From assembly GCF_000024625.1 (NCBI RefSeq), contig NC_013407.1, positions 744,001 through 808,000 of the forward strand: a stretch of DNA of 64,000 bases. Reading direction: 5' to 3'. A program made the position numbers and the translations under genes. The notes beneath the pieces are model-generated. The model was not told the origin of the DNA. It did no database searches and saw only the letters and a program-made list of their open reading frames with translations. Origin of the DNA: Methanocaldococcus vulcanius M7. Lineage in GTDB: Archaea > AGJL01 > Methanococci > Methanococcales > Methanocaldococcaceae. Positions 27,227 through 48,815 of this stretch are shown here, piece by piece (the stretch's first letter is position 1; each line of letters starts with the position of its first letter).

Positions 27227-28930
27227 TTAATTTATATCTGTTGCATCGATCTTTATAACTCTCCAACTATTTGCATATTTATCAGAGACAGGATAGTTGT
27301 CAATATTGACAGAGTAGTATCTTCTAAACTTCTCTTCCACATCCTTTAATACTTCATTCATTAAATCCTCTCCAACTTGGACATCAACATATATTGTGTC
27401 TCCAAAGATCTGTTTAACAATATTTCCATCTTTAACTACCACATCTCCTCCTTTCAAGACATATTTTGCATATCTAAATGCTTTTTCAATTTTCTTACCA
27501 TCTTTCTCTTCTGGATCTATTGCATATATTGCTATATCTGCCTCAGCTCCAACTCCCAAGTGTCCTTTTGTCTCACTTAATCCTAAAACCTTGGCTTGAT
27601 TAGCCCTTGTTATTTTTGCGATTTCATATAGATCATATTCTTTATCTGCATCCGCTACATGACTTCTCTGCTGTGCCCACTTGTGAACTTTGTTGTATAA
27701 CCACTCATCCCTATACTTTTTACTCATTAACCATGCAATAACTCTCGGGTATCTAATAAATGGCCCAGCATTTGGGTGATCTGTGGTTAATAAAACCTTA
27801 TCTGTATTGGTGTGTAGGAAGAGTTCCAAACCAATTGCCCACTGAACTGCATAGACAGGTCCTTTTGGACTGTAAATGAAAGGAACAACTCCAGAACCTG
27901 TTTCAAGTTCAACATCACAGTTTGCCCACTTTAATCCATTAGTCATGTGTAGATCGTATTCCATTGGGCCATCAGCAGTCATTGTAGTGGTTTCATCTAA
28001 TGTGATCTGCCCTACATCAATAACCACATGTTTTGATTTGTTTACATATTCTGCAATTTCTATTGCCTTACTTTCAAAGTCCTTCCATGAGGTTCCTCCA
28101 TAGGAGTGGAATTGACAATGGGTGTTGTAGTAGGATGTTTCCCTCTCTCCAACTCTTGGTTTTGCCTCTATTCCCTCAACACACTTCATTGTCTCTAATG
28201 TTGTCTCCCAGTTTCCAGGATGTCCCAAGTTGTTTGGATGGACGTGGATTGAGTGAGGTAAACCAAGCATCTCGTTAACTTCTGCTAAACCTCTAACGAT
28301 CTCTCTTGGTGTTATATCGAAGTATGGGACTGGATCATCTAAGCTGTGAACGTTTTTACCCCAACCCCATGCCTCTGTTCCTCCAGGGTTAACGATCTTT
28401 ATTGCAAAACCTCTTGTTGCCTTTAACAGCCAAGCAACATATGCAGCACATGCCTTAATATCACCCTCTTTTAAATATTCCATAACCATCCAGTTATTTC
28501 CAAATAATGGCATTGCTGCTTTGTCTATCTGTGGGGTTTCTATAAACTCTTCGTGTGTGTGTCTTGCAATTAGTGGAGGCATTGCTGCCTCAACAACCAT
28601 CGTATATCCCATTTCTGAATATTGATAACCTGTTTTGTATGTAGATGGAACTGAAAATCCAGTTCCAGTTCTTAATCCCTTTTTGGCATAGATGTCTTTT
28701 ACACTATCTTCTGGTCTAAATATCCTTCCTACGTTAACTTTTGCTCCTGCAAGGTGGCTGTGAGAGTCAACTCCTCCGGGCATTACTACACAGTTGGAAG
28801 CATCAATAATCTTTGCGTTGTCAGAAACGCTCTCAACGATCTTTCCATCTTTAACACATATGTCCATTTTTTCTCCATTAACACCATTTAAAGGATCGTA
28901 GACGATTCCATTTTTAATAATGTATTCCAT
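27227..28930 (-). CDS. fwdA: Formylmethanofuran dehydrogenase subunit A (amidohydrolase)
   Basis: The 567-residue amidohydrolase-superfamily subunit holds the binuclear metal site that condenses formate with methanofuran. Seen here: VVMPGGVDSHSHLAG with the H-x-H metal ligands (about residues 49-63), FAIKIVNPGGTEAWGWG (the carboxylated Lys region), HSIHVHPNNLGHPGN, and LLTTDHPNAGPF with the conserved Asp. GGTGATAGG precedes ATG. The fwdB subunit, which holds the tungsto- or molybdopterin and would feed formate to FwdA, is not in this operon. MJ1169-like. Confidence 0.97.
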   Translation of the reverse strand: MEYIIKNGIVYDPLNGVNGEKMDICVKDGKIVESVSDNAKIIDASNCVVMPGGVDSHSHLAGAKVNVGRIFRPEDSVKDIYAKKGLRTGTGFSVPSTYKTGYQYSEMGYTMVVEAAMPPLIARHTHEEFIETPQIDKAAMPLFGNNWMVMEYLKEGDIKACAAYVAWLLKATRGFAIKIVNPGGTEAWGWGKNVHSLDDPVPYFDITPREIVRGLAEVNEMLGLPHSIHVHPNNLGHPGNWETTLETMKCVEGIEAKPRVGERETSYYNTHCQFHSYGGTSWKDFESKAIEIAEYVNKSKHVVIDVGQITLDETTTMTADGPMEYDLHMTNGLKWANCDVELETGSGVVPFIYSPKGPVYAVQWAIGLELFLHTNTDKVLLTTDHPNAGPFIRYPRVIAWLMSKKYRDEWLYNKVHKWAQQRSHVADADKEYDLYEIAKITRANQAKVLGLSETKGHLGVGAEADIAIYAIDPEEKDGKKIEKAFRYAKYVLKGGDVVVKDGNIVKQIFGDTIYVDVQVGEDLMNEVLKDVEEKFRRYYSVNIDNYPVSDKYANSWRVIKIDATDIN

Positions 28931-28995
28931 CCTATCACCGTTTTAATTTTAAACTATTTTAAATTAATTTAATATTATTAATAGGAATTGCTCAA

Positions 28996-29397
28996 TTATT
29001 CTCCCGTTTCTATGTATTTTTTCCTCATTAAAGCCCTCATATCTAAAAGTTCTTCATCTGTTTTCTCTACTTCAACATAAAATCCAGGATAGCCCTTAAA
29101 TGTTGGCATTCCAGTGCTGTGTGTATCTGGCTTAACAACACAGTTTGCCCAAGGTCCCATCGGGATATATATCATCCCTTCAGGCATTCTTTCTGTTGCT
29201 TTTTTCACATGAACCACAACTTCTCCGTATTCGGACTTAACTTTAACTTTATCTCCTTCTTCAACTCCAAGTTTTTCCATATCTTCTTCATTGATATAAA
29301 CAACACCTGCTGCTTTTACATACATATCCAAGTTTTTTCCGGCCTCCATTGCCTCTCCTTGCCATATTGTCCTTCCAGTGTTTAAAAAGAACTTCAT
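28996..29397 (-). CDS. fwdD: Formylmethanofuran dehydrogenase subunit D
   Basis: The 133-residue molybdopterin-dinucleotide-binding domain (double-psi barrel) corresponds to the C-terminal part of formate dehydrogenases. Typical segments are NTGRTIWQGEAMEAGKN, VYINEEDMEKLGVEEGDKVKV and IPMGPWANCVV with THSTGMPTFKG. It completes the active site of FwdB, which is encoded elsewhere. GGTGATAAA precedes ATG. It lies between fwdG and fwdA. MJ1168-like. Confidence 0.95.
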   Translation of the reverse strand: MKFFLNTGRTIWQGEAMEAGKNLDMYVKAAGVVYINEEDMEKLGVEEGDKVKVKSEYGEVVVHVKKATERMPEGMIYIPMGPWANCVVKPDTHSTGMPTFKGYPGFYVEVEKTDEELLDMRALMRKKYIETGE

Positions 29398-29500
29398 TTT
29401 ATCACCGAACTATGATTTATTGTTAAATGACTCCTTTTTGTATTTTCATCCCTTTTTGTCATGTTTTTTATTAATTTTTTAAGTTTTTATTATTTGCTAA

Positions 29501-29749
29501 TTATTTTCTTTTAAAAACGAGTTCTATTGCCCCTACTGGACATGCCTCTATGCACGCTCCACAACCACCACAAAGATCTTTGTTAATTATTGCAACAGCT
29601 CCATTTTCTACTCTAATAACAACATCATCACTGTAAGGACCCTTACCTCCCCATGTTTCTGGATTTTTAGCGTTTACTGGACAAGCTATTACGCAATTAC
29701 CACATCCGTGGCACTTTTCTCGATAAACAACCAATTCATAAGCTTTCAT
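29501..29749 (-). CDS. fwdG: Formylmethanofuran dehydrogenase subunit G, two-cluster ferredoxin
   Basis: The 82-residue ferredoxin has two [4Fe-4S] motifs, CHGCGNCVIACP and CGGCGACIEACP. The first is followed by an insertion (NAKNPETWGGKGPYSDD) as in FwdG/FmdG. It carries electrons between the polyferredoxin FwdF and the catalytic subunits. GAAGGTGAGGAA precedes ATG. It is separated from fwdF by 133 bp and from fwdD by 103 bp. MJ1167-like. Confidence 0.95.
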   Translation of the reverse strand: MKAYELVVYREKCHGCGNCVIACPVNAKNPETWGGKGPYSDDVVIRVENGAVAIINKDLCGGCGACIEACPVGAIELVFKRK

Positions 29750-29882
29750 TTCCTCACCTTCTAATGTTGATTATATTTAGTTTCATTATATTTTTATATT
29801 TTTATGTTTAGTTAAATTTATTTAATTTTGTTAGGTTATATTAAACCCATTTTACTTTTTTAAATGCTTATTTTAGCAGATT

Positions 29883-30953
29883 TTACTGATTCATAAGTTT
29901 TTTAAATGCTTCCTTCCATGCAATTGCTACCGGTTCTCTTTCGAAGTTTATTTCAGTTCTTTTAACTTTTATTGCGTTAATTGGGCATGCCTTACTACAA
30001 GCTCCACACAAAACACATAGATTTTGATTTATTATGAGTCGTGGCACTTTTTCTGCCTTGTCTTTTGGCATTGGGAATTCTAACGCACCACACGGACAGA
30101 TAGCTACACAAGCTCCACAGGCGTTGCAGGCATCAACATCAATTATAACTTCTCCTTTGAATGGTTTTTCAACCTCTATCGCTTCTGCTGGGCAAATAAA
30201 GGCACACCATCCACAGGTTACGCAGGCATCCTTATCAACAACTGTTTTTCCGTTAATGTCTTTATATAATTCTGCTTTTGGTATTCTTTTCATCATTGGA
30301 CATTTGTAGCAAATAACCTCTATTGCATTGTGCGGACAAACAAATTCACAAACTTTACAGTATACGCATTTATCTGAGTTAACTTCTATATCTGTTATTG
30401 GTTTTGGGTTTGATGGCGTTGGATAGCAGTATTTTAGGTCTATGGCATCAGCAGGACAGTAATCAGCACAGATTCCACACAAAACACATTTCTCCTTGTT
30501 TATGTTTACTTCTCCAATAACAAACTTACTTCTCTCAGCCAGTGTTTTTTCAACTTCTATTGCTGATTGTGGACAAACCATTTCACACTGCTCACACAAG
30601 ACACACTTATCCTGTGAAATTTTAATATCTCTTTTTATCTTTGGGTATCTTTCATCTTCTTTTATTGATTTTCCATTTATTTTCAAATCCATTGCATTAA
30701 AAGGACATGCTGATGCACACATTCCACACAAAACACACTTTTCTTCATCAATATCCAATTTTGGGGCAATAATATCCCCTTTTGCAATAGCTCCAAGAGG
30801 ACCCATTGCTATTGCTTCAACAGGACATATGTCTGCACATATTCCACAACCAACACATGGTTCATCATTCCATAAAAGTTCTCTTGTTTCTATCTTTCCA
30901 TCTCTATATATCCTAAATCCGTTTTCGAATGTTTCTTTTACTTGCTCGATCAT
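29883..30953 (-). CDS. fwdF: Formylmethanofuran dehydrogenase subunit F, polyferredoxin
   Basis: The 356-residue protein contains eight C-x2-C-x2-C-x3-C-P motifs, from CVGCGICADICP near residue 33 to CVLCGACSKACP near the C-terminus, so it should carry eight [4Fe-4S] clusters. In this family it wires electrons to the core, probably from heterodisulfide reductase/hydrogenase partners. An extra CYKCP pair sits between motifs 5 and 6. The ribosome site GGAGGAA is formed by the last codons of the upstream HTH-ferredoxin gene, 2 bp away, so both are translated from one message. MJ1166-like. Confidence 0.95.
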   Translation of the reverse strand: MIEQVKETFENGFRIYRDGKIETRELLWNDEPCVGCGICADICPVEAIAMGPLGAIAKGDIIAPKLDIDEEKCVLCGMCASACPFNAMDLKINGKSIKEDERYPKIKRDIKISQDKCVLCEQCEMVCPQSAIEVEKTLAERSKFVIGEVNINKEKCVLCGICADYCPADAIDLKYCYPTPSNPKPITDIEVNSDKCVYCKVCEFVCPHNAIEVICYKCPMMKRIPKAELYKDINGKTVVDKDACVTCGWCAFICPAEAIEVEKPFKGEVIIDVDACNACGACVAICPCGALEFPMPKDKAEKVPRLIINQNLCVLCGACSKACPINAIKVKRTEINFEREPVAIAWKEAFKKLMNQ

Positions 30954-30955
30954 GG

Positions 30956-31396
30956 TTATTCCTCCTTAACAAATTTTAGCGAGTTAGTAGGACATTGAAG
31001 AGTGCATGAACCGCAGAGATAACAGGAGTTTTCATCTATCTTTAACTTAAAGTTATCCAGTGTGAGTGCTACACACACAAGACATGAACCGCAAGCGATA
31101 CATGACTTTTCATTCCATATGAGTTTTACACCATATAATTCTTTTATTAAGTTTTTTGCAAGGTTTTTATCATCTGTTAATGAATGGATCAACTTTGATC
31201 CATAATTCGGAGGAAGATCTTCTATTGTTTTAGCAACATTTAAGATTTTCCTCTTTGGATACCTTCCAGAAAGATAATGAGAAACGATAGACCTATCGCT
31301 TTTAATAATCTTTGCTATTTCTCTTTGAATCATTCCTTTTCTTCTTAGTTTCATTGCAACTATTGCCTTTATCCCTGAAAGAATATGCTCTGGCAT
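30956..31396 (-). CDS. HTH-ferredoxin fusion protein, probable regulator heading the fwd operon
   Basis: About 146 residues. The N-terminal half is a helix-turn-helix: RRKGMIQREIAKIIKSDRS followed by IVSHYLSGRYPKR as recognition helix. The C-terminal half is ferredoxin-like with a normal motif CYLCGSCTLQCP and an abnormal first motif CIACGSCLVC, spaced C-x2-C-x2-C-x2-C without the usual Cys-Pro. This suggests DNA binding controlled by an iron-sulfur cluster. The GTGAG before Met6 favours 31396; an ATG at 31411 is the alternative. It starts the fwd operon and may autoregulate it. MJ1165-like; I know of no experiment on its function. Confidence 0.8.
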   Translation of the reverse strand: MPEHILSGIKAIVAMKLRRKGMIQREIAKIIKSDRSIVSHYLSGRYPKRKILNVAKTIEDLPPNYGSKLIHSLTDDKNLAKNLIKELYGVKLIWNEKSCIACGSCLVCVALTLDNFKLKIDENSCYLCGSCTLQCPTNSLKFVKEE

Positions 31397-31483
31397 TGTC
31401 TCACATGACATTATTGATGTTATTTTACAATTATTATATATAGGGTATGTATAAAATCCAAGTAGAAACTAATATATATTGCT

Positions 31484-31498
31484 GTGAGCATTGCTCAC
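31484..31498. promoter_or_regulatory. Palindromic operator candidate in the fwd divergent promoter region
   Basis: Perfect inverted repeat GTGAGCA-T-TGCTCAC, 7-bp arms with one central base. It is GC-richer than its surroundings and too tight to be a good RNA hairpin, so a dimeric DNA-binding protein is the likely reader. It lies about 45 bp upstream of the minus-strand TATA box CTATATATAAT (near 31434-31446) of the fwd operon. Confidence 0.6.
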
Positions 31499-31515
31499 TT
31501 TTTAATGACATTCTA

Positions 31516-31541
31516 AAAATAGGAATAAAAGTTCCTATTTT
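31516..31541. promoter_or_regulatory. 26-bp palindrome near the divergent HTH regulator promoter
   Basis: Perfect 10-bp arms AAAATAGGAA and TTCCTATTTT around a 6-bp centre. It lies between the first palindrome and the TATA-like sequences (TTTATATTGG, TTATATTAATATATC, about 31555-31584) of the plus-strand regulator gene. It could be an operator, or in RNA a hairpin, though no transcript is predicted to start upstream of it. Confidence 0.55.
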
Positions 31542-31641
31542 GGAAGACAACCTTTATATTGGTAAATTATATTAATATATCATTGACCATAAAAAATAAA
31601 TATCACGATGATTTAGATTAGAAGAATTTACGGTGATCAGT

Positions 31642-32586
31642 ATGAGAGAGATATTAATATCTGAATGTATAGAATTATTAAGGGCTCATAAGTTTATTGT
31701 TTCAAAACCACTGGGAAGAAGTTGTTTTGATATGGTTGCAAGTAAGGAAGATATTCGACTTATTTTAAAAATATTAAAAAATATAGACAGTTTAAGTAAA
31801 GATCAGTCAAAAGAATTAAAAAAGATCAGCAAGATACTTCATGGAACTCCTTTAATAATTGGAATAAGGACAAGAAACGCTCCAATGGAGCACGGAGTTG
31901 TTTATGATCGATATAATATAAAGGCAGTTACTTTTGAGACATTTAGGGATTATTTAGAGGGAAGTCCGCCCATGGTTTATGCAAATAGAGGAGGATTTTT
32001 TGTAAAGATAGATGGAAATGTATTAAAAGAGGTTAGAGAGTCGATGGGCATTTCGGTTGGGAAACTTGCAGAGGTTGCAGGTGTTTCAAGAAAGGCAATA
32101 TACAAATATGAAACGCAGATGGCTAATCCATCAGTAGATGTAGCTATTAAAATAGAGGAATTTTTAGATGTCCCACTGGTTAGGGGCATAGATCTGTTTG
32201 AGCCCGTTGAAGACGAGGATGTTGAGAACAAATTAGAAAATTTAGAGGATTTTAAAAAGGAAGCAATAAATTTTTTAAATGACCTGGGATTTAAATCGTT
32301 CGTTGTTGAGAAAGCACCTTTCGATGCTGTGGCAGAAAAAGATACCGAAAAAGATATGAATATTCTACTAACCAACATAGAGGAAAAAAGTAGTGAGGAA
32401 GTAAAGAGAAAGGCACTTTTTGTTAGAGAACTTTCTAAAATGTTGGATGGATATTCTCTCCTAATATTAGAAGAAAAAGAAAAAGAATACAAAAATTTAC
32501 CGGTTATTAGTTTAAATGAATTAAAAAAGATGGATGATGCTCTTGAATTGATAGAGCATATAAAGTCCATGTTAAAATCATTTTAA
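31642..32586 (+). CDS. Putative HTH-type transcriptional regulator (XRE domain with nuclease-like halves)
   Basis: About 314 residues. A central Cro/C1-type HTH (about 130-185: LKEVRESMGISVGKLAEVAGVS, then RKAIYKYETQMANPS) lies between two related regions, each resembling a small restriction-endonuclease-like fold without obvious catalytic residues (HKFIVSKPLGRSCFDMVAS and LGFKSFVVEKAPFDAVAEK). It matches the family known as putative HTH-type regulators such as MJ1164. The start is ATG at 31642 after GGTGAT; the GTG at 31633 is part of that site. It is divergent from the fwd operon and probably regulates it or itself through the palindromes between. Confidence 0.85.
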   Translation: MREILISECIELLRAHKFIVSKPLGRSCFDMVASKEDIRLILKILKNIDSLSKDQSKELKKISKILHGTPLIIGIRTRNAPMEHGVVYDRYNIKAVTFETFRDYLEGSPPMVYANRGGFFVKIDGNVLKEVRESMGISVGKLAEVAGVSRKAIYKYETQMANPSVDVAIKIEEFLDVPLVRGIDLFEPVEDEDVENKLENLEDFKKEAINFLNDLGFKSFVVEKAPFDAVAEKDTEKDMNILLTNIEEKSSEEVKRKALFVRELSKMLDGYSLLILEEKEKEYKNLPVISLNELKKMDDALELIEHIKSMLKSF

Positions 32587-47642: not shown

Positions 47643-48815
47643 ATGAATGTTTTATCCTATGATTTAAATAAAATTGCTGAAAAGCTTAACATTTCATTAA
47701 AGGATTTAAACAAAGCATTTAAAAAGAGAATTTTAAGAGAGAATGAGTATAAAGATGTAAAAACACTCATATTTAAAAAAGATTTTAGGGGGATAGAGAA
47801 AGGAACAGTAATATTTTTAAATAAAAATCTTGATGTAGTTAGAGGTTATCCTAAAACTTATCGAGCAATAACTCTATATCCTACAATAAAAAAGCATTTT
47901 GTTGATAAGGTTGTTGTTGAAGAAAAGTTAAATGGATACAACATAAGAATTGTAAAGATAGAGGGAGAAGTATATGCGTTAACAAGAGGTGGGCATATAT
48001 GCCCATTTACCACAAAAAAAGTAAAAAAATTTTTAGATTTAAGTATATTAGATGAATTTAATAACTATATGTTATGCGGGGAGATGATTGGAAAAAACAA
48101 TCCCTACACTCCTTACTACTACGAAGAAGTAGAAAGGGGCTATGAAAATTTAGGTTTTTATATATTTGATATAAAAGAGAGGGATTCCAATAGATCCCTT
48201 CCAATAAATGAAAGAATAGCCCTCTGTAAAAAATATAACTTACCATACGTAAAACCACTGGCTATCCTTGATAAAGATACTGCCCACTTACATATAAAAG
48301 AGATAATAAATGATTTAAACAGAAGAAAGAGAGAAGGAGTTGTTATGAAAGACCCTGAAATGATAGTTCCTCCAATAAAATACACTACCCACTATACTCA
48401 ATGTGAAGACCTAAGATCTGCGTTTACGTTTTTCTTTGACTTAGGTGTGGATTTTTTATTTAGTAGGGTTGTAAGAGAGGGCTTTATGAGTTATGAGTTT
48501 AAAGATAGTGAAGAGGATTTAAAAAAGAGAGCAGAAGATTTAGGAGAGGCAATATTGGTTCCGATGGTTGAGACAATACGAAAAATTTCAAATGGAGAAA
48601 GGGTCTCTGAGGATTTTGAATTGATATTTGATAGTGAGGATGATGTTGATGAATTTATATATTTTATGAGAAAGATGAAAATGTTAATTGTTATAAAGGA
48701 TATTAAAAAGATCGATACCAATGAGGGAGTTAAAATAAAGGTTTTAATTGGAAAAATTTATAATAAAACCAATGATAAAGTTATAAGCTATTTAAATGGG
48801 ACGCTCTGGGAATAA
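47643..48815 (+). CDS. ATP-dependent RNA ligase, Rnl3 family
   Basis: Joins RNA ends or circularises RNA through ligase-AMP and RNA-adenylate intermediates. The 390-residue protein has nucleotidyltransferase motif I as EEKLNGYN with Lys95, motif Ia/III around YALTRGGHICPFTTK and GFYIFDI, motif IV EGVVMKDPE and motif V-like PPIKYTTHY. A C-terminal helical domain follows (about 240-390). It matches the archaeal ligases typified by the Methanothermobacter enzyme MthRnl and Pab1020. AAGGGGAAG precedes ATG. The biological RNA substrate is not established. MJ0414-like. Confidence 0.9.
   Translation: MNVLSYDLNKIAEKLNISLKDLNKAFKKRILRENEYKDVKTLIFKKDFRGIEKGTVIFLNKNLDVVRGYPKTYRAITLYPTIKKHFVDKVVVEEKLNGYNIRIVKIEGEVYALTRGGHICPFTTKKVKKFLDLSILDEFNNYMLCGEMIGKNNPYTPYYYEEVERGYENLGFYIFDIKERDSNRSLPINERIALCKKYNLPYVKPLAILDKDTAHLHIKEIINDLNRRKREGVVMKDPEMIVPPIKYTTHYTQCEDLRSAFTFFFDLGVDFLFSRVVREGFMSYEFKDSEEDLKKRAEDLGEAILVPMVETIRKISNGERVSEDFELIFDSEDDVDEFIYFMRKMKMLIVIKDIKKIDTNEGVKIKVLIGKIYNKTNDKVISYLNGTLWE

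Follow-up and report, generated by a model that had tools for sequence, protein, structure and literature searches.

The promoter region of the fwd operon was compared across 36 Methanococcales genomes (about 54 Mb). The comparison suggests that a conserved palindrome, site A, is the operator of a helix-turn-helix (HTH) ferredoxin protein acting as a local autoregulator, and that a neighbouring palindrome is a separate, recent NrpR-type operator; the probability of this reading is estimated at about 0.68. Both palindromes lie in the 64-kb window, i.e. the whole stretch of DNA analysed, in a gap (31412–31641) which separates the HTH-ferredoxin gene, leading the fwd operon on the minus strand, from a divergent XRE-type gene on the plus strand. 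The host genome comprises 1,761,737 bases in three contigs. FwdF, FwdD and FwdA were recognised by NCBIfam models over the cut-off (NF042909, NF042908 and NF042911, respectively), and fwdG was named from its position and ferredoxin motifs. Genome-wide motif counts were obtained by pattern searches. The coordinates are presented in Table 1.

Table 1. Genes, palindromes and promoter elements around the gap, with window positions.
Feature	Position	Strand	Remark
fwdF, fwdG, fwdD, fwdA, 3' of the HTH-ferredoxin gene	27227–30953	−	NCBIfam models and position
HTH-ferredoxin gene, fwd operon gene 1	30956–31396	−	orthologue in 36/36 Methanococcales genomes
Predicted fwd transcription start	31412	−	about 26 bp from TATA centre; distance from PMC5512572
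Site B position, degenerate here	31420–31436	−	about −39 to −23 from ATG, by analogy with L008–L011
TATA2 (TATATATA), presumed fwd TATA box	31435–31442	−	8/8 match to TWTATATA
TATA1 (TATATATT), conserved	31473–31480	+	upstream purine-rich on + strand
Site A: palindrome 1 plus one flanking base per side, AGTGAGCAATGCTCACA towards fwd	31483–31499	−	
Palindrome 2; core 31520–31537, TAGGAATAAAAGTTCCTA	31516–31541		matches NrpR operator GGAA-N6-TTCC
TATA3 (CTTTATAT), presumed XRE TATA box	31550–31557	+	kept in the 11 genomes sharing this layout
XRE-type regulator gene	31642–32586	+	NCBIfam PRK04140, 398.8 bits, cut-off 263

The inverted repeats which an earlier note on this DNA had placed at 31484 and 31516, 17 bp apart, were both confirmed in the sequence. 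Palindrome 1 is GTGAGCA-T-TGCTCAC (31484–31498) and palindrome 2 is AAAATAGGAA-TAAAAG-TTCCTATTTT. The second has 10-bp arms and a 6-nt spacer, which makes it an interrupted palindrome. When the 230-bp gap was dinucleotide-shuffled, palindromes with 7-bp arms, a gap of at most 1 and no fewer than 4 G/C in each arm turned up in about 0.07% of cases, the same arm class without the G/C condition in 14%, and 10-bp arms with a gap of at most 8 in about 2%. Across the whole window, one further palindrome passed the 7-bp-arm G/C criterion and two further passed the 10-bp-arm criterion. The window also contains a perfect palindrome with G/C-rich arms, TGGGCATATATGCCCA, at 47990–48005. The symmetry of either palindrome by itself is modest evidence and suggestive only, and comparative evidence was therefore sought. 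Both palindromes appear to exceed chance because palindrome 1 is conserved and palindrome 2 matches a known operator.

Phylogenetic footprinting, which the earlier note had proposed as a check, found palindrome 1 kept upstream of fwd throughout the order. Of the 35 alignable Methanococcales promoters, 34 have the form TGTKAGYANNRCTMACA ahead of their fwd TATA box, and 34–35 of the 36 genomes carry site A, the copy of L016 being weak. Among 30 distinct versions of the site, positions 2, 3, 12, 15 and 16 were nearly invariant (GT..C..A core). The half-sites covary, GTGAG/CTCAC versus GTTAG/CTAAC; the 4/14 pair changes jointly from G-C to T-A in 26/30, which was reached by 0 of 5000 shuffles, the shuffling ignoring shared ancestry. 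The strict pattern GTKAGYANNRCTMAC was detected at 23 places in the 36 genomes, 21 of them at most about 125 bp upstream of an HTH-ferredoxin gene, and away from fwd only at G002:C1:1472327 and G033:C1:1484265. The reversed control of the pattern resulted in 8 scattered matches. Within the host genome, the sequence second closest to palindrome 1 differs from it at 3 positions. Genome G003 retains the HTH-ferredoxin gene, and site A is absent from it. At the fwd locus of this genome (L012, 543–1433 and 1507), fwd is divergent from a gene which by eye encodes a LysR-type regulator, not an XRE protein. On these comparisons, palindrome 1 is an order-wide element and an almost single-target candidate operator.

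The position of site A relative to the promoter elements is nearly constant. It starts 54–57 bp before TATA2 in 34 of 35 genomes, and the 46 bp determined for the outlier, L007, probably reflects an ambiguous TATA call. The distance from TATA2 to the start codon varies between 37 and 89 bp. TATA1 is located between site A and TATA2, at 19–21 bp from where site A begins. The M. jannaschii elements are given as MRCCGAAAAG for the strong BRE and TWTATATA for the TATA box in PMC5512572. On average, the flank of TATA1 matched the BRE at 4.4/9 on the divergent strand and at 3.1/9 when read towards fwd, with purine counts of 6.2/9 and 4.3/9, respectively. Since the sequence upstream of it on the plus strand is purine-rich and resembles a BRE, TATA1 probably faces away from fwd. 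Because of this BRE-like flank the gap looks like two promoters placed back to back, site A lying between TATA1 and the predicted start of the TATA1 transcript near 31503. A conserved TTTCTACTTGAATTT-type block was observed between TATA1 and TATA2 in the window (31457–31470) and in relatives; on the opposite strand it forms the BRE-like element of TATA1, and its conservation extends beyond what a BRE needs.

A second copy, site B (TGTTAGTTATGCTAACA and similar), is well formed in many relatives near the predicted fwd transcription start. The spacing between sites A and B was 77/78 bp in nearly all Methanococcaceae and 64–67 bp in those Methanocaldococcaceae that have site B, and in L014 both sites are near-perfect. 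Site B is degenerate in the host genome and in several close relatives (L002–L007), and a two-site model is therefore not general. The placement of site B fits repression, and the fixed distance of site A would suit a role either in blocking TATA1 or in assisting TATA2. Transcription starts have been mapped in M. maripaludis.

The putative binder of site A is the HTH-ferredoxin protein, because its gene is always present with fwd, leading the operon in 36 of 36 genomes, and the XRE gene is adjacent in only 11. At every fwd-type locus read, fwdF adjoins the HTH-ferredoxin gene. A phylum-level search for the protein gave only the same 36 genomes, and a single-protein query against genome contigs, an insensitive scan, resulted in Methanococci loci only. 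The start codon lies in a conserved ATGCCAGAG at 31396, about 16 nt past the predicted transcription start, and all orthologues begin with MP[EDK]. The ORF call at 31411, whose ATG coincides with the predicted transcription start, is probably 15 nt (5 codons) too long because ATGCCAGAG is conserved in relatives; the true start is thus probably the ATG at 31396.

Eight cysteines, arranged in two four-cysteine cluster motifs, are invariant in all 36 proteins, and the 2[4Fe-4S] ferredoxin domain was recognised in the window protein (Fer4, 34.9 bits). The AF2 model (pLDDT 94.6) comprises HTH helices at residues 2–88 and a ferredoxin fold at 90–144. In Foldseek comparisons, the C-terminal half matched 2[4Fe-4S] ferredoxins (1fdn, 1vjw) and the N-terminal half weakly matched XRE-type HTHs of controller and antitoxin proteins. 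The XRE/HTH_3 type was assigned in 15 of 15 members, with the best value of 9.5e-7. The domain pairing is unusual, and no solved protein combining both halves was found. As the eight cysteines are invariant, a redox response of the protein is plausible.

A different role was also considered, in which the protein would carry electrons as a Fwd subunit, its HTH being degenerate, and site A would be bound by another regulator encoded elsewhere. The C-terminal ferredoxin half could indeed serve Fwd directly, and the HTH homology of the window protein is below the Pfam HTH_3 cut-off (17.8 versus 23 bits). However, the helix region R35..S39-H40-Y41..G44-R45.P47 is invariant or nearly so, the HTH is modelled with confidence as a helical bundle, and the near-confinement of site A to one operon fits a local regulator. 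By sequence, the protein is not a component of the solved Fwd complexes, in which the search gave only FwdF/FwdG-type ferredoxins. This role was considered improbable.

Two paralogues of the HTH-ferredoxin were observed, L037 (G022:C1:499405–499875) and L038 (G033:C1:1369958–1370431). By eye, both are near genes of kor-type 2-oxoacid:ferredoxin oxidoreductases, and L037 is also near a CODH-like gene. In genomes G022 and G033, site A also deviates most in sequence. The context of the paralogues may point to a family whose members serve enzymes that depend on ferredoxin.

The other neighbouring protein, the XRE-type regulator, could be thought to bind palindrome 1, palindrome 2 or both, and to control fwd together with its own gene. 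It has a clear HTH_3 domain, and in 11 Methanocaldococcus genomes its gene is divergent from fwd, the gap being common to both. Nevertheless, XRE orthologues were detected in 35 of the 36 genomes, and outside the 11 they are located elsewhere; the 19 further upstream regions that were read contained neither site A nor GGAAN6TTCC. Site A stays with fwd and not with the XRE gene, and palindrome 2 is missing from 9 of the 11 genomes retaining the divergent XRE gene. The XRE protein was rejected as the palindrome binder on this phylogenetic co-occurrence, and control of fwd by it is considered very improbable. The assignment of one palindrome to each neighbouring DNA-binding protein is not supported, since the upstream regions of XRE orthologues read elsewhere carry neither motif and palindrome 2 matches the operator of NrpR, a protein encoded elsewhere in the genome. 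The literature search resulted in no paper giving the HTH-ferredoxin or the XRE gene a regulatory role.

The operator consensus of NrpR is GGAAN6TTCC (PMC2723118), and this inverted repeat is present in palindrome 2 at 31522–31535 (GGAATAAAAGTTCC). The core of palindrome 2, TAGGAA-N6-TTCCTA, is an exact 12/12 match to the extended operator at nifH. The short form was found 58 times in the host genome, mostly intragenic, versus 14 in the control. The extended form was found only twice, once in palindrome 2 and once about 25 bp ahead of the nifH ORF. When its 18-bp pattern was reversed as a control, about 0.4 matches per genome resulted. In relatives, the extended operator precedes glnA, glnK, amtB and nifH, as well as a probable nadE and a molybdate/tungstate-type transporter (all gene names by eye). 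NrpR itself is encoded in the host genome, with PF01995 detected twice at G000:C1:1654658–1656007 (E 2.5e-67). In the related strain FS406-22, NrpR operators precede the nif operons (PMC8809328). At L116 and L118 (G001 and G004), NrpR-type operators were observed before a probable NH3-dependent NAD synthetase gene, which may belong to the NrpR regulon. As palindrome 2 matches the NrpR consensus and its extended form occurs only twice in the host genome, the binding of one palindrome by the XRE protein is not supported, and an input from nitrogen is the likelier reading.

The footprinting was unfavourable to palindrome 2, which was recovered in the closest sister only and is absent from the other nine genomes sharing the XRE–fwd gene order. 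The refuting condition named in the earlier note, absence from close relatives, thus applies to palindrome 2 and does not apply to palindrome 1. Its geometry also differs from that of the other NrpR targets. In 11 of 12 of those, the TATA box starts 9–28 bp before the operator; here the operator begins 47 bp past TATA1 and 30 bp short of TATA3, and neither neighbour is a nitrogen gene. These findings, together with the reversed-control frequency, the 2% of shuffles with 10-bp-arm palindromes and the folding of the region's RNA with z = −3.5, speak for a palindrome that arose by chance or for a hairpin in a transcript, an explanation to which somewhat less than an even chance was given. On the other hand, the 12-base match is exact both to the nifH operator and to the operators at nitrogen genes of relatives, and the sister genome G008 retains the identical 18-mer amid changed surrounding bases. 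A structured RNA was rejected, since there was no Rfam match and the hairpin is not conserved past the sister. A nitrogen operator specific to this lineage is the probable identity of palindrome 2, and even to slightly better than even odds were given to a working NrpR site, most likely acting on the transcription of the XRE gene.

The binding protein, the sign of regulation, the transcription starts and the signal we infer from these comparisons. A dimer of the HTH-ferredoxin would read the two GTKAG half-sites of site A through its XRE-like HTH domain, and the protein would be an autoregulator with essentially one target, acting on the opening step of methanogenesis. Bound site A would probably block the divergent promoter (TATA1) and set the use of the fwd promoter, and in relatives site B near the fwd start may add direct repression. 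The likely signal would be the redox state or the occupancy of the two [4Fe-4S] clusters, tying fwd output to the ferredoxin supply. Palindrome 2 would be an NrpR-type nitrogen operator gained recently in this lineage. In M. maripaludis, Fwd subunits are slightly elevated under H2 limitation (log2 0.20–0.28; PMC2723118), which is compatible with redox control but not specifically. The compact regulatory switch that the earlier note saw for fwd was upheld as a module, with palindrome 1 conserved and tracking the HTH-ferredoxin gene, but not in its assignment of proteins. A bidirectional version, a switch for the entry of CO2 into methanogenesis in which the HTH-ferredoxin would sense the redox state of ferredoxin and select either the fwd or the divergent transcript, and in which a nitrogen input through NrpR would have been added in the M. 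vulcanius lineage, is considered unlikely; in it, two operators about 77 bp apart would flank the back-to-back TATA boxes.

The first step of methanogenesis depends on ferredoxin, and little is known about how it is tuned in hydrogenotrophic methanogens. The present analysis specifies a candidate regulator and a candidate operator for fwd, both open to genetic tests in M. maripaludis. The candidate regulator is a DNA-binding domain fused to a ferredoxin, the kind of protein that feeds the enzyme which it would control. If palindrome 2 functions as proposed, a direct link from nitrogen to methanogenesis is predicted in one lineage.

Three known systems were compared with the locus. Palindrome 2 resembles the NrpR operators of Methanococcales (PMC2723118, PMC8809328) in its exact consensus and flanks, and the same class occurs at nifH; in contrast to those operators, it is off the usual TATA placement and beside a non-nitrogen operon. 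Tfx of Methanothermobacter, the regulator of fmdECB which binds near the operon promoter, is likewise a small HTH protein encoded beside a formylmethanofuran dehydrogenase operon (PMC3087415). The HTH similarity to Tfx is weak, and membership in the Tfx family was rejected, as TIGR00721 scored 19.1 bits versus the cut-off of 60.25 and covered residues 16–45 only. Tfx serves the Mo enzyme, whereas the operon here encodes the W enzyme. Tfx is not known to have a ferredoxin domain. An MsvR-regulated promoter was also rejected, since neither TTCG nor CGAA, and hence no TTCGN7–9CGAA box, occurs in the gap. MsvR, a redox-responsive regulator of methanogens (PMC3729527), shares with the proposed system autoregulation, inverted-repeat boxes overlapping promoters, a divergent promoter pair (in M. 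thermautotrophicus) and a redox signal, the autoregulation and the signal being proposals here. MsvR, however, uses thiol cysteines and TTCGTAN4TACGAA boxes, whereas the HTH-ferredoxin, the proposed regulator of fwd, carries two cluster motifs.
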